56,766 nt of DNA from Acidobacteriota bacterium. GTDB taxonomy: Bacteria > Acidobacteriota > Terriglobia > UBA7540. Shown one piece after another: positions 2,391 through 38,080 of the stretch. The translations under genes were made by a program, and so were the position numbers. Under the pieces are notes generated by a model. It was not told where the DNA came from. It worked only from the letters and a program-made list of their open reading frames with translations, and made no database searches. The stretch spans positions 1 to 56,766 of the forward strand of contig CADDZE010000023.1 in NCBI GenBank assembly GCA_902812465.1. The letters run 5' to 3'. Numbering within the stretch: position 1 is the first letter of the stretch; every line of letters begins with the position of its first letter.

Positions 2391-2444
2391 TGGCGATTGG
2401 TCGATTTCCAGTCTCAAATTGAAATCAAAAACTCAGGATGGCGG

Positions 2445-3410
2445 ATGCCAAACTCAAGGGCAGCGATCAACTATGGAAGACCGAAACCCAGGGTGCCAGG
2501 GCTAGTGCGCGGCTATGTGCCCTGGACCGTGGGGCTCATTCTCGCTCAGGCGGCCAGCCTCCAGGCGGCCTCAAGCTTTCCCGCCTTCCAGGGTGACCGC
2601 GCGTTCGCGGACCTGAAGCGGCTGGTGGCCTTTGGGCCACGCCCACCGGGCTCGAGGGCACTGGCAGATAGCCGCCAGTGGATCGTTGGGCAGCTCAAGT
2701 CCGCTGGGTGCGGAGTGGATGAGGATGCATTTGTGGCCTCGACACCCGAGGGCGACATCCCGATGACGAACCTCATCGCCCGAGCCCGTGGCGACCGGCC
2801 TGCGGTGATCCTGATCGCCGGCCACTACGAGACGAAACTCATGAAGGACGTCCGGTTTGTGGGAGCCAACGACGGTGGCTCGAGTGCCGCCTTTTTGCTA
2901 GAAATGGCTCGCTTGCTCTGCCGGCGGAAGAATCCCCTCACTTACTGGCTGGTCTTCTTCGACGGTGAAGAGGCGCTGCGTGAATGGTCCGCCACCGACA
3001 GCCTTTACGGCAGCCGGCACCTGGTCCAAAAGCTGACCGCTTCGGGAGAACTGGCGCAGATCCAAGCAATGATCTTGGTCGACATGATTGCGGACGCCAA
3101 ACTTGACATCACCAAGGAATCGCGCTCGACGCTCTGGCTCAGCGACCTGGTCTTCAGTACGGCGCGCCGCCTCGGCTACGCGCGCTACTTCGTGGACCGC
3201 CCAACTCCCATCGATGATGATCACATTCCCTGGCTGAACGCCGGCGTCCCGGCCGTGGATATCATCGACCTTGATTACGGCCCGGCGAACCGCTATCACC
3301 ACACACCCGAAGATACGGTAGATAAGTGCAGCCCGGCCAGCATGACTATCGTTGGGCGCGTGATCACGGCCACCCTGGAACAGCTCGAGCATTCGCCCCG
3401 CCTCTATTGA
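2445..3410 (+). CDS. Secreted M28-type glutaminyl cyclase-like zinc protein
   Basis: The C-terminal 280 residues match the glutaminyl-peptide cyclotransferase branch of the M28 fold. The putative zinc ligands are Asp in G-A-N-D-G-G-S-S, Glu in F-D-G-E-E, and His in Y-H-H-T-P-E-D-T. The stretch after G-E-E (W-S-x-x-D-S-L-Y-G-S-R-H-L) is strikingly like animal and bacterial glutaminyl cyclases, and D-D-D-H-I-P-W-L holds the conserved D-H-I-P. QCs convert N-terminal Gln to pyroglutamate in exported proteins; an aminopeptidase role is the alternative. ATG 2445 is preceded by AGGATGG and leads into a hydrophobic export signal (about residues 19-45) without a twin-arginine motif. It follows tatC by 54 bp and may share its transcript. 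Confidence 0.85.
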   Translation: MPNSRAAINYGRPKPRVPGLVRGYVPWTVGLILAQAASLQAASSFPAFQGDRAFADLKRLVAFGPRPPGSRALADSRQWIVGQLKSAGCGVDEDAFVASTPEGDIPMTNLIARARGDRPAVILIAGHYETKLMKDVRFVGANDGGSSAAFLLEMARLLCRRKNPLTYWLVFFDGEEALREWSATDSLYGSRHLVQKLTASGELAQIQAMILVDMIADAKLDITKESRSTLWLSDLVFSTARRLGYARYFVDRPTPIDDDHIPWLNAGVPAVDIIDLDYGPANRYHHTPEDTVDKCSPASMTIVGRVITATLEQLEHSPRLY

Positions 3411-3497: not shown

Positions 3498-5117
3498 TTA
3501 AGCGGCGAGATAGACCGGACTAGGGACTGAAACGTAGGAGTGTCGCGGGGGCAGCGAATCGTCTCGCAGGGGAAAATCCTCACGGTAGTGCGCGCCGCGG
3601 CTCTCCGCACGCTTCGCCGCGCACCGGGCGAGGAGGCGCGCCACCGCGAGAATGTGCCTGGCCTCATAGTATGACCGGGATGGTACCGCGGTTTCCGCCA
3701 GCACAAGCGAGTCAAGACACCGGCTGGCCTCGGCGAGTTCGGAGCCCCGGCGTATGATGCCCACCTTGTGCCACATCAGACAGCGAACCTCCCGCACCAG
3801 GCTTTCCGCGTCGAGTGCCACGCAGCTAGTAGGCACCTCACCTGTCGAGGAGGGCGAATCCGAAGTGCGCGCAGGTGGTGTGGGCCAGACTGAAGGACGC
3901 TCACCCGCGATCATGGCCTTCGCGGCGCGCGCACCGAAGACCAGCCCTTCCAGCAGTGCGTTGGCCCCCCAAGCATTGGCACCGTGAACCCCTGACGCGG
4001 CCACCTCGCCTGCCGCATAAAGTCGCGGAACGCTGGTGGCGCCATTCAGCCCGACGGCGACGCCGCCCACCGTGAAGTGTGCCGCTGGAAGGACCGGCAC
4101 GAGATCCGCCGCAATATCCAGGTTGTGCCTGACGCAGGCTAGGTGCAGGGCGGGGAACCGCTTTCGCAGCCGGTCGGGTCCCACGGCGGTGAGATCCAGG
4201 TAGACACACTCGCTTCGGCTGTTGCGCATCTCTTGTACAATGGCGCGCGCGATGGCGTCAGCCGGCGCCCGATCGCCTGCTTCGTGATAGCGCGGCATAA
4301 ATCGCTCGAGGTCTACGTTGAGCAGTTTGGCGCCGTGCTCGAGGAGCGCGGCGGGTAAGGGCAGGTGTGGAGCGCCTCGCGCGTGCAGGCAGGTGGGATA
4401 AAACTGGACGAACTCCAGGTCTTCCAGTACGGCCCCCGCGGCGAAAGCCAACGCTATCCCGTCGCCGCAGGCCGAAGGAGGACTCGTCGTTTCCCGGTAG
4501 AGTTGTCCGAGTCCCCCCGTAGCCAGCAGCACCGCCTTGGCGCGCGTCCGCCGGTAACGCGGCACGCGGTCTTCCGTCAAGTAGAGCGCCCCGGTTACGC
4601 GCGGCCCCTCCCGCAGAAGCTCGACCACGGTAGTCCGTGGCACGATCTCGATAGCTGGCATCGACTGGGCCTTAGCCCTCAGCACGTGCATGATTGCGCC
4701 ACCCAGCGATGCCTGCTGGCTTTCCTGAAGGCGGAGAACGCGCGGGCGGTTGAGCGAAGTGGAGCGGGCTAGGGCGAGGCCAGCGCCACTAGGATGAAGT
4801 TCAGCACCCCACTCTATTACCTCTTGAATCCGCGCTGGGGCTTCTTCCAACAGCGCATGGACGGCCGCCGGGCGGCAGAGGCCATCTCCCGCCTGCAACG
4901 TATCGTGCTCCGATAGCACTACCTCGTCGTCGCTGGCTGAACACGCCAGGCAGGGTTTGGCATGGGGCAAGCTGGGGTCCGCGGCGTGGCCCTTGGCCAG
5001 GACCAAGACGTGTCCGGCACGGGCAAGCTCCAGGGCGGCACGCAGGCCCGCTATGCCTGCCCCCACCACGAGGAAGTCCGCTTGCGCGTCGCATGCAGCT
5101 GCCATCAATGGGGCCAT
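3498..5117 (-). CDS. NadB-like flavoprotein with substituted active site
   Basis: About 539 aa with the L-aspartate oxidase / fumarate reductase flavoprotein architecture: an FAD Rossmann motif (V-V-G-A-G-I-A-G, about residue 18), A-T-G-G-L-G-Q-L-Y, the capping domain, P-A-A-H-F-T-V-G-G-V, G-E-V-A-A-S-G-V-H-G-A-N, and a C-terminal helical domain. NadB oxidises L-aspartate to iminoaspartate for NAD synthesis. Here the residues equivalent to E. coli His244, Arg290 and Arg386 are Tyr240, Ala286 and Ala382; only His351 is kept (His347). The offset of 4 is constant, so the alignment is secure. The usual S-x-x-A-Q-G-G-I-A loop is also absent. No nadA or nadC lies nearby. Probably not a working aspartate oxidase. 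ATG 5117 or 5105 both fit; the frame extends to 5306 without family similarity. Confidence 0.8.
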   Translation of the reverse strand: MAPLMAAACDAQADFLVVGAGIAGLRAALELARAGHVLVLAKGHAADPSLPHAKPCLACSASDDEVVLSEHDTLQAGDGLCRPAAVHALLEEAPARIQEVIEWGAELHPSGAGLALARSTSLNRPRVLRLQESQQASLGGAIMHVLRAKAQSMPAIEIVPRTTVVELLREGPRVTGALYLTEDRVPRYRRTRAKAVLLATGGLGQLYRETTSPPSACGDGIALAFAAGAVLEDLEFVQFYPTCLHARGAPHLPLPAALLEHGAKLLNVDLERFMPRYHEAGDRAPADAIARAIVQEMRNSRSECVYLDLTAVGPDRLRKRFPALHLACVRHNLDIAADLVPVLPAAHFTVGGVAVGLNGATSVPRLYAAGEVAASGVHGANAWGANALLEGLVFGARAAKAMIAGERPSVWPTPPARTSDSPSSTGEVPTSCVALDAESLVREVRCLMWHKVGIIRRGSELAEASRCLDSLVLAETAVPSRSYYEARHILAVARLLARCAAKRAESRGAHYREDFPLRDDSLPPRHSYVSVPSPVYLAA

Positions 5118-10707: not shown

Positions 10708-11127
10708 ATGGTTTTCGAGCGAGACGATGAGCCCGGCGACGAGTTGGACGACTTCGGCGAGGAACTTCCCTCCGACTATCGCGAGGAAGAAGAGGGCAGC
10801 GACGAAGGGGAGCTGGAGGAAGAGGAAGTTTCCTACGAGGTAGAGGAGACCGAGGGCCGCACCCAGCCACCAGCCGCCCCGGCAGCAGAAGTCTCTAAAC
10901 CGGCTCCTGAACCCGCACCGGGACCGCCGGCCACCAAAGCTGCTAAGCCGGCCAAGAAGGCGGCGAAAAAGGCCAAGGCTGCTTCCAAGACGGCAGCCAA
11001 GAAGGCGGCTCCCAAGGCGCGCCGAGCCGTCAAGGCGGCCCGGCCGGCAGCCAAGAGGGTTAAGGTGAAGAAGAAGTCTGCGCCTGCCAGAGCGGCCAAG
11101 AAGCCGAAAAAGGGGGCGCGCCGTTAG
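10708..11127 (+). CDS. Bipolar acidic / Lys-Ala-Pro-rich (histone H1-like tail) protein
   Basis: 139 aa with strongly split charge. Residues 1-50 are nearly all Asp/Glu (D-E-P-G-D-E-L-D-D-F, E-E-E-G-S-D-E-G-E-L-E-E-E); residues 70-139 are repeats of A-K-K-A and P-A-K-K typical of eukaryotic H1 tails and bacterial H1-like proteins such as AlgP. It should be intrinsically disordered. The basic half could bind DNA or RNA; the acidic half could mask it or bind a basic partner. A strong AGGAGG sits 8 nt before the ATG. Such composition also arises in ribosome-associated or polyphosphate-linked proteins, so the role is open. Confidence 0.7.
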   Translation: MVFERDDEPGDELDDFGEELPSDYREEEEGSDEGELEEEEVSYEVEETEGRTQPPAAPAAEVSKPAPEPAPGPPATKAAKPAKKAAKKAKAASKTAAKKAAPKARRAVKAARPAAKRVKVKKKSAPARAAKKPKKGARR

Positions 11128-11228
11128 CCGGTGCCCGCCGCAGCACGAGGCAGTGGACGAAGAAACAGCCGGCACGGAGCGCGGGCAATCCGAACTTCAG
11201 GCAGGCCGGACTGCGGGTTGCAGGCTTG

Positions 11229-12107
11229 ATGCCGTCCCAAGGGGCTGCACACGCTTCCGCAAAGTCCCGGACTTTGACCGAGGCCGGGGAACCGACGGCG
11301 GATTTGACCGTCACCCCGACGGTACGCGCCTTGGAGTTTGTCCGCAGGCTGCGTGGATCGTCACAGCCCGTTCTTGCCCGGTGCGACGACGAGCACTATT
11401 ACGTTGTCAAATTTCAGAATAACCCGCAGCATGTGCGGGTGCTCGCCAATGAGCTGTTGGCGGCAAGGCTGGCGCGGCTGATTGGTCTGCCTGTCCCTCC
11501 CGTTGCTATCGTCAACGTCTCTGAACAGCTCGCGGCGCTTCCATTTGAAGACTCCTATCGCCAAGCCGGCATGGCTGGCCTCCAGTTCGGCTCGCGCCTT
11601 CCGGGTCTCCCTGGCGACACTTTGGTGGTGGATTTCCTCCCCGACCGCTTGCTGCGCCGGGTACGGAACCTGCGCGAAGCCTTCCTCGGCGGCTTCGTGT
11701 TCGACAAGTGGACCTGCAACTGCGACGGACGGCAGGTGGTATTCTTCCGGTCCGCCAACAGCCGCCAGCTGAGTTATTCAGCGTGGCTGATCGACCAGGG
11801 CTTCTGCTTCAATGACGGCGCCTGGTCCTTCCCTGATGCGCCGCAGCGCAGCCTCTATCCCCGCGCCTTGGTCTACGAGAGCGTTTCGGGTCTTTCTTCC
11901 TTCGAGCCGTTCCTATCGCGGATCGAGAACCTGGAAATGGGGCAGCTTGAAGCGGCGATTGAGGGCATCCCAGGGCAATGGTGCGGGGGCGAGCCACAGC
12001 GGCTGCTGGGCCTGGCTCGCGAGCTTTATGACCGCCGGAAGGGCTTGCGCCAAGCCATCATTGAGGCGAAGAATAGCTGTGTCCGGCCATTTCCCGGCTG
12101 GAAGTAG
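11229..12107 (+). CDS. HipA-like kinase (HipA_2 type)
   Basis: 292 aa with a minimal PI3/HipA-type kinase core. V-V-K61 fits the ATP-binding Lys, N-E-L-L-A-A-R-L the following helix, F-D159-K-W-T-C-N164 the catalytic D-x4-N loop, and I-D189-Q-G the metal-binding Asp. Catalytic residues look intact, so it should be active. Unlike HipA toxins it lacks the N-terminal HipA domain and has no HipB-like partner; it is followed after 29 bp by a DUF3037 gene, the usual companion of this family. Function of the family is unknown; protein or small-molecule phosphorylation are both possible. TTG 11226 directly precedes the ATG chosen. Confidence 0.78.
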   Translation: MPSQGAAHASAKSRTLTEAGEPTADLTVTPTVRALEFVRRLRGSSQPVLARCDDEHYYVVKFQNNPQHVRVLANELLAARLARLIGLPVPPVAIVNVSEQLAALPFEDSYRQAGMAGLQFGSRLPGLPGDTLVVDFLPDRLLRRVRNLREAFLGGFVFDKWTCNCDGRQVVFFRSANSRQLSYSAWLIDQGFCFNDGAWSFPDAPQRSLYPRALVYESVSGLSSFEPFLSRIENLEMGQLEAAIEGIPGQWCGGEPQRLLGLARELYDRRKGLRQAIIEAKNSCVRPFPGWK

Positions 12108-12136
12108 CCGCCGCGGCAAGCAGCGCCGGACAAGCT

Positions 12137-12979
12137 ATGCCAAGCGCTATGTCCGCTGAAGAACAGCCCGCTGGTAAGGCGAAGGCTTGCTCCTACCTGT
12201 TCGTCCGCTACGTGCCCGACCTTCGGCGCGACGAAGCGCTCAACCTTGGCGTCCTGCTGCATAGCCCGGAAGAAAAATATCTGGGATGCCTTTTCACGCA
12301 GGATTTCCGGGCCATCCGGCGCCTGCACCCTGGGGCCGATGTCCGCCTGCTGCGTGAACTCCCAGAATACTTCGAGCAGCAAATCGACGAGCACGAAGAC
12401 GATCTGGCCGGATACCTGCGGTCACTGCAAGAGTCACTGTCGAACCTGATCCAGGTTACCGATCCACGCCCCTGCCTGCTGGCTGACCCGCAGTCCCAGA
12501 TCCAGGAGCTGTTTGCTCGCTATGTCGGATCGCCCGGCCGCGCCACCGGCACTTCCCGAGACACGCGCCTATGGATCAAGCAGCAGCTTCGGACGGCTTT
12601 TGTGCGCGCCGGAGTCTGGGATCATCTAGAACGGCGCATTGCCGCCTCGGCGTGGACCCACCCGGGCGATCGCTTCGCATTTGACTATGGCTACCGGCCG
12701 CTGGTCATGGATGGCCGCCCCAACGGCCACATTCATTTCATCCACGCGCTTTCCCTGCGCTACGGTACGGACCTTGCCAAGGTGCTCGTTTACACTCTGG
12801 AGCGCGTCCGCCGCCGCGAGCCGGCGGACTTGACCGCAGTCACCGAGGACGCACCGGCACAGTCTGGCTCCTCTTTGGCGCAAACGCGCAGTGTGCTGGA
12901 AGAGGCCGGCGTCGCGCTGCTGCCTGTGTCGGCTGCTGAGGCCTACGCGGAGCGCGTGCGGCACGAGCTAGGAATATGA
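12137..12979 (+). CDS. DUF3037 family protein
   Basis: 280 aa. The N-terminal part shows the DUF3037 signature: S-Y-L-F-V-R-Y-V-P-D followed by R-R-D-E-A-L-N-L-G-V-L-L-H and a basic segment R-A-I-R-R-L. The rest is helical and includes a region rich in Arg and Trp. No catalytic motif is evident. It lies 29 bp after the HipA-like kinase and overlaps the next gene by 4 nt (ATGA), so the three are likely coordinated. Co-occurrence of DUF3037 with HipA-like kinases is known; the biochemical link is not. Start could also be the internal ATG at codon 5. Confidence 0.8.
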   Translation: MPSAMSAEEQPAGKAKACSYLFVRYVPDLRRDEALNLGVLLHSPEEKYLGCLFTQDFRAIRRLHPGADVRLLRELPEYFEQQIDEHEDDLAGYLRSLQESLSNLIQVTDPRPCLLADPQSQIQELFARYVGSPGRATGTSRDTRLWIKQQLRTAFVRAGVWDHLERRIAASAWTHPGDRFAFDYGYRPLVMDGRPNGHIHFIHALSLRYGTDLAKVLVYTLERVRRREPADLTAVTEDAPAQSGSSLAQTRSVLEEAGVALLPVSAAEAYAERVRHELGI

Positions 12980-37157: not shown

Positions 37158-38080
37158 CAGGCTACGAGCAGCATCACCGTGATCCGGGCGCGACCCATGC
37201 CAACCAGCCCATCCTCGCACCCATGGCCAGTCTGCAACCATTCACTGAAAGTACGAAGCTTCGAATGCCTGGGTAACGCTTGTCGCTGGATTCACAACCG
37301 TGCAGAGCGTTGGATCGCCCGAAGACCGGGACCTGCGCGACGCCATCGCGCGGTGACCTTCCAGGCCCCGAATCCTCACGGCCCTCCGCCCTCTGGTGGG
37401 GCGACGGTGAGCAGACCGGAACCCCGGCCGAAATTCGCGACTATATTCGCAGGCTGAAAGCGGCCTGCGGTGAGGCGAAGGCACTCGGGATGCGAACCCT
37501 TGTGCACGCTTATCGTGAGGCGGTGCGCATGGCCACCCTGGCGGAATGTACCGAGATTGAGCACGGCACCTTTGCCACGGACGAGGATCTGAGGCTAATG
37601 GCGGAGCACGGAACCTATGTCGATCCCCAGGCTGGCTTGGTGATCGAGAACTACCTGGCCAACAAGGCCAAGTTCCTGGACATTGGTAACTACACCGAAG
37701 CAGGCTTCCCGGCAACGGAAGGTGCTCTTCCTTTGGACCACGAGCTGATTCGACGTGCCCTGCAAATTCCGGGCCTAAAGGTGGTGTTTGGCACGGACGC
37801 CATGGCCGGCGCCCATGGCCGTAACGCCGAAAAGCTCATCGATCAGGTGCGCGACGGCGGCCAGAATCCTATGGCGGCTCTGGTATCTGCCAACTCACTC
37901 GCTGCCGAATCGATGGGACTGGAGCACGAGATTGGCTCGATAGCACCAGGCATGGAAGCCGATATCATCGCCCTGGATGGCGACCCGCTGCGGGATATCA
38001 CGGCCGTGCGGCGCGTCGTGTTCGTAATGAAGGGCGGCCAAGTCTACAAGAACCGGGCTGCGTGGAACGGGCGCCAGTGA
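37158..38080 (+). pseudogene. Decayed metal-dependent amidohydrolase
   Basis: The open part (about 37410-38080) encodes the C-terminal half of an imidazolonepropionase-like amidohydrolase: E-I-E-H-G-T-F-A-T-D, V-F-G-T-D-A-M-A-G-A-H-G, S-I-A-P-G-M-E-A-D-I-I-A-L-D-G-D-P-L. Upstream, the N-terminal part survives in other frames: T-L-V-A-G-F-T-T-V-Q-S-V-G-S-P-E-D at about 37277-37325, then D-L-P-G-P and I-L-T-A-L-R-P-L each in a different frame, so at least two frameshifts are needed. The metal H-x-H segment is missing, and a stretch is missing after E-I-R-D-Y-I-R-R-L-K. The gene cannot make an active enzyme. Confidence 0.8.

Follow-up and report, generated by a model that had tools for sequence, protein, structure and literature searches.

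The locus and its reading frame

The window, by which we mean the whole stretch of 56,766 nucleotides analysed here, is part of contig C23 in a metagenome-assembled genome (MAG) of 3.9 Mb and 190 contigs that is 98.6% complete and 4.2% contaminated. Close to its start are three plus-strand genes, a tatA/B-like gene (1190-1588, PF02416), tatC (1536-2390, PF00902) and a gene for an M28 peptidase (2397-3410, PF04389); convergent with the last of these is a minus-strand open reading frame (3498-5117) encoding a NadB-like flavoprotein of 539 amino acids. The frame runs for 539 codons with zero internal stops, and is thus intact as first described. Its start is placed at the ATG at 5117, with ATGs at 5105 or 5306 as alternatives; the latter, which is in frame, would extend the protein to 602 amino acids, and the relatives of the gene begin near the ATGs at 5117/5105.

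Three other features of the window may be recorded. A short plus-strand ORF (10708-11127) encodes a protein whose N-terminal half is acidic and whose C-terminal tail is rich in Lys and Ala; it resembles histone H1-like bacterial proteins. At 11064-12976 (plus strand) is a gene pair for a HipA_2-like kinase and a DUF3037 protein, and the same pair occurs in the relative G026 (L134:17148-19056), near queG and the nad cluster described below. An amidohydrolase ORF (37280-38080, plus strand) matches only the C-terminal part of its Pfam profile (137-344 of 345); an ORF for the N-terminal part was not seen upstream, and this is probably a truncated gene or remnant.

Replacement of active-site residues

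The closest solved structures to the NadB-like protein are L-aspartate oxidases (5kxj, E = 1.2e-78; 1knp and 1chu, E = 3e-77). In alignment with E. coli NadB, the three replacements listed in the preliminary description are all seen: His244 is Tyr240 (codon 4398-4400, minus strand, as are all positions that follow in this section), Arg290, the acid/base arginine, is Ala286 (4260-4262) and Arg386 is Ala382 (3972-3974). The aligned structure 1knp is itself an R386L mutant; relatives have arginine at this position. His351 is kept as His347 (4077-4079), and all four sites share an offset of 4. Misalignment was ruled out, since several independent alignments agree on the replaced sites.

The original observation is correct but understated, as more active-site residues are gone than were listed. 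E121 is replaced by S119, T259 by P255, E260 by A256, R263 by L259 and S389 by A385; P-A-A-L-L-E-H (residues 255-261, 4335-4355) stands in place of T/S-E-A-L-R-G-E, and the segment matching LAFTREGAHSRSR of the E. coli E121 region (residues 114-126, 4740-4778) is also replaced. The A-Q-G-G-I-A loop is gone, as had been reported: NadB AQGGIAA reads AKPCLAC in the window protein (residues 53-59, 4941-4961). The FAD dinucleotide-binding motif G-A-G-I-A-G (residues 19-24, 5046-5063) is kept, its glycines being invariant in canonical and divergent members of the family alike. Among columns that are invariant in the family, 36 of the 71 in active-site elements are altered in the window protein, against 13 of the 106 elsewhere (Fisher p = 4e-8); the active-site replacements are therefore not due to chance.

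A separate feature of the flavin loop is a C-x-x-C motif (CLAC, residues 56-59, 4941-4952), which falls exactly at the NadB loop and is absent from the other four divergent members described below.

Family membership and predicted structure

The window protein contains the FAD_binding_2 (PF00890, 232.7 bits) and Succ_DH_flav_C (PF02910, 53 bits) domains. Its best-scoring named families are those of L-aspartate oxidase, all below cut-off: it scores 384.7 bits against the 452.75 required by TIGR00551 (L-aspartate oxidase NadB), and the cut-offs of the other NCBIfam NadB models listed are likewise missed. The cut-offs for SdhA/FrdA are also missed (TIGR01812, 266 bits against 567), and the catalytic arginine pair of those enzymes was not found, both positions being alanine.

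In comparison with NadB (E. coli 1chu/1knp and S. Typhimurium 5kxj) the fold matches from end to end (Z about 46, with 36-37% identity), and the two have in common the FAD_binding_2 domain, the GxGxxG, ATGG and GE motifs and the C-terminal helical domain. Unlike NadB, the window protein is without R290, R386, H244, T259, E260, R263, E121 and the AQGG flavin loop. Within the superfamily, NadB R290, H244, H351, R386 and T259 occupy the same positions as the catalytic set of fumarate reductase. In that enzyme the proton donor is Arg287 and the substrate is held by His232, His355 and Arg390, aided by Thr244 (PMC10238741, PMC9557727). The window protein shares the superfamily fold with SdhA/FrdA (Z about 45 to FrdA), but equivalents of R287, R390, H232 and T244 are missing. 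A covalent flavin of the SdhA type was considered and rejected, because the column of the SdhA flavin-His holds serine and the nearby histidine of the window protein is three columns off. It is very unlikely that the window protein acts as an aspartate oxidase or a fumarate reductase.

The AlphaFold model of the window protein has the full NadB fold (pLDDT 84.9, pTM 0.89) and is closest to 5kxj (Z 46.6) and 1chu (Z about 46). Its segments of low confidence are the N-terminus, a linker at 420-427 and three loops, namely the flavin loop (45-62, pLDDT <50), the E121 loop (110-125, pLDDT <50) and the R386 loop (381-384). A canonical relative, predicted as a control from the same sequences, has pLDDT <50 at the N-terminus and linker only and at none of the three loops. 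The motifs for the ADP half of FAD are kept in the window protein, and the isoalloxazine loops are altered.

A divergent clade at the ancestral nadB locus

Most family genomes with a match have a fully canonical NadB that is roughly 50% identical to the window protein; the relatives with names are MAGs of Terriglobia or Acidobacteria. These native canonical proteins (L004, L005 and others; about 50-53% identity) are direct orthologues at the same locus that retain every catalytic residue, and most of their genomes have NadA and NadC. Nested among them in the tree is a divergent clade of five sequences from three genera, the window protein and L122-L125, with support of 100/99, or 93/89 after the active-site columns are removed. 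The four members besides the window protein are roughly 50% identical copies without R290 from G013, G021, G026 and G030, with P, F, A and P at this position respectively.

The window gene occupies the ancestral locus of its family's nadB. For the window, L122, L123 and L124 the position is that of the canonical nadB genes, convergent with the M28 peptidase, tatC and tatA genes, which here serve as synteny markers. Since tree position and locus agree, the clade genes are the old NadB gene altered in place and not a remote paralogue; the window gene descends from nadB by orthology. A clue to function was sought in an operon, but the gene has no operon partner and, as in the canonical relatives, faces M28/TatC convergently.

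It had been proposed that a conserved clade carrying Y/A/A at the three sites would support a new subfamily. There is indeed a well-supported clade whose active site is disrupted, but the Y/A/A set is found in the window alone: loss of R290 is the only one of the three common to the clade, and a Y/A/A subfamily was found neither in the tree set nor in the loci inspected from 399 genomes of the class, and the divergent clade consists of five sequences only. The search model was made from these five, so that their high scores against it are by construction. The R290 position reads A/P/P/F/A across the members; H244 is Tyr in two of the five and kept in three; H351 and R386 are each kept in four of five, R386 being replaced in the window protein alone. 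The losses common to the clade are R290, the glutamine of AQGG, the E121 region, where the loops are dissimilar and variably shortened, and the RGEG loop. The shared derived residues are Y348F, A243V/C, S255P and G260E, and among the five members there is no new shared polar residue of catalytic type.

Selection on the gene

The suggestion that the gene is selected and not decayed stands, with ω far below 1 and the frame intact in five lineages. In a branch codon model, ω is 0.06 on the window branch and 0.11 on the remaining branches of the clade, and fixing ω=1 costs 46 and 348 lnL units respectively; saturation at synonymous sites along the long branches makes the ω values rough, but the rejection of neutrality is large. 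In simulations of neutral drift with at least 1 substitution per codon, a stop-free frame was never left. The stem of the clade has an excess of amino-acid change, since letting ω vary there improves the fit by 6.5 lnL units, although the stem is tiny in neutral substitutions and its ω value is poorly defined.

This selection is not uniform along the protein. In active-site and cap codons ω is 0.02 in canonical NadB and rises to 0.14 in the other clade members and 0.11 in the window protein, whereas in the rest of the protein it is 0.09 in canonical NadB, 0.11 in the other members and 0.06 in the window protein. The active-site elements have been released five- to seven-fold and the remainder is as constrained as true NadB. 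Furthermore, 19 columns that are invariant in 22 canonical relatives are changed in all five members, and 18 of these 19 are in active-site elements (p = 2e-7). Therefore, constraint has been lifted mainly from the catalytic side.

NAD genes in the host and its relatives

The absence of quinolinate genes near the NadB-like gene, as claimed, extends to the whole host genome, in which NadA and NadC were likewise not detected. A search for NadA gave no match, and the match to NadC, a weak one (19.8 bits), falls in the PncB portion of a PncB-PncA fusion that belongs to niacin salvage. This fusion, a nicotinate phosphoribosyltransferase-nicotinamidase, is a single 708-amino-acid ORF on contig C48 (L138:6528-8654, plus strand) with an NAPRTase (PncB) and an isochorismatase/nicotinamidase (PncA) domain. 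Because NadA and a true NadC are lacking and the fusion is present, the host appears to make its NAD by niacin salvage. The missing nad operon could alternatively sit in an assembly gap, as the host is a MAG of 190 contigs. Similarly long NAPRTase frames, of 677-726 amino acids, occur in the relatives G014, G015 and G024, and in G015 and G024 a match to NadA or NadC is likewise absent.

In the host only two flavoproteins of the NadB/SdhA type were found, the other being SdhA on contig C55. A second NadB with the canonical residues, the presence of which had been raised as a check, is not detected in the host, but is present in four sister genomes: G013, G021, G026 and G030 each encode, next to nadC and nadA, a further NadB that is canonical and of another type. 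This separate NadB would have freed the native one to change. In two further genomes, G004 and G014, the nadA-nadC-nadB cluster is present and a native NadB was not found. In G013, G026 and G030 queG adjoins the nad cluster; in the host it lies in the middle of contig C44, without nad genes, but the other flanks are not conserved.

One relative, G011, has no NadA or NadC match and yet a native-type NadB (L126) whose catalytic residues are kept. This protein has drifted at 11 of the 177 invariant columns (loop FLLPEVLRSEG) and may represent the process seen in the window clade at an early stage.

Discussion

The gene in the window is the descendant of a normal enzyme of the vitamin B3 pathway, L-aspartate oxidase (NadB), in soil Acidobacteriota. 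The account that we favour, and hold to be reasonably likely, is that the native nadB orthologue was made redundant and has been kept as a NadB-derived, probably FAD-binding pseudoenzyme that is not an aspartate oxidase. According to this account, the native nadB would have been inherited vertically in the Terriglobia (Acidobacteriota) lineage until its function became redundant, when a different gene cluster took over the pathway or the pathway gave way to salvage. The nadA-nadC-nadB cluster was presumably gained by horizontal transfer, and the window lineage would once have held it and later lost it. In five lineages the old NadB has stayed intact under purifying selection while losing the proton-transfer arginine and most of the substrate-cap residues. 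The protein would still fold and probably bind FAD through the kept Rossmann and C-terminal parts, but oxidation of aspartate and reduction of fumarate would no longer be possible. Most likely it serves as a flavin-binding protein with very weak catalysis or none, perhaps as a regulator that responds to a ligand or to flavin, or as a protein partner. Going by the residues that remain, a carboxylate may still bind at the R386/H244/H351 sites kept by most clade members, and some residual chemistry is possible.

Selection for a different reaction, as originally suggested, is borne out for the selection but not for the new reaction, for which a new conserved polar residue is lacking and the active-site codons have lost constraint. 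It could nevertheless be that the old substrate pocket has been rebuilt for a different substrate, an alternative that we regard as unlikely though worth weighing. Purifying selection acts throughout the protein and does not spare the active-site codons (ω 0.11-0.14, with ω=1 rejected), and the shared derived changes, together with a stem in which excess amino-acid change was followed by renewed constraint, would fit such a rebuilding; most of the shared derived residues, however, have a hydrophobic or structural character, the members differ at the key position 290 (A, P, P, F, A), the E121 loops are unalike and variably shortened, and an operon partner that would hint at a substrate is missing. 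The lack of a new polar residue, the mixed position 290, the variable E121 loop and the loss of constraint favour a pseudoenzyme over a new enzyme. A related and still more doubtful proposal is that an orphaned NadB gave rise to a new flavoprotein subfamily whose members have a new activity or take part in signalling, and in which the C-x-x-C of the window protein might form a redox-active disulfide beside the flavin.

Alternatively, the gene might be drifting towards loss after displacement of NadB and be intact by chance only. Loss does seem to be tolerated in G004 and G014, which have the displacing NadB without a detected native one, and the branches in the tree are long; set against the strong rejection of neutrality on both the window and the other branches, the five intact frames and an ω outside the active site about the same as that of true NadB, simple decay is improbable. 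It is less probable again that the window protein works as an L-aspartate oxidase with a rearranged active site. Its top named families are those of this enzyme and both H351 and Q242 are kept, but with all NCBIfam NadB cut-offs missed, R290, R386, H244, T259, E260 and E121 gone, a host without NadA/NadC to use the product and a canonical NadB in the sister genomes, little speaks for it. An artefact of sequencing, assembly or binning is scarcely credible despite the estimated contamination of the MAG, as the changes are substitutions and not frameshifts, are partly common to independent relatives, and are in a contig bound to the family by synteny.

In the literature on NadB pseudoenzymes or Acidobacteriota NadB, nothing directly relevant was found. 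If the favoured account is right, the gene would show cleanly, in nature, how a housekeeping enzyme can lose its role in a pathway and still be kept by selection without its catalytic residues, and the matched orthologues at one locus, canonical and catalytically erased, would provide a test set for the origin of pseudoenzymes. For the bacteria themselves, automatic annotation of such genes as NadB would wrongly credit them with de novo synthesis of NAD.
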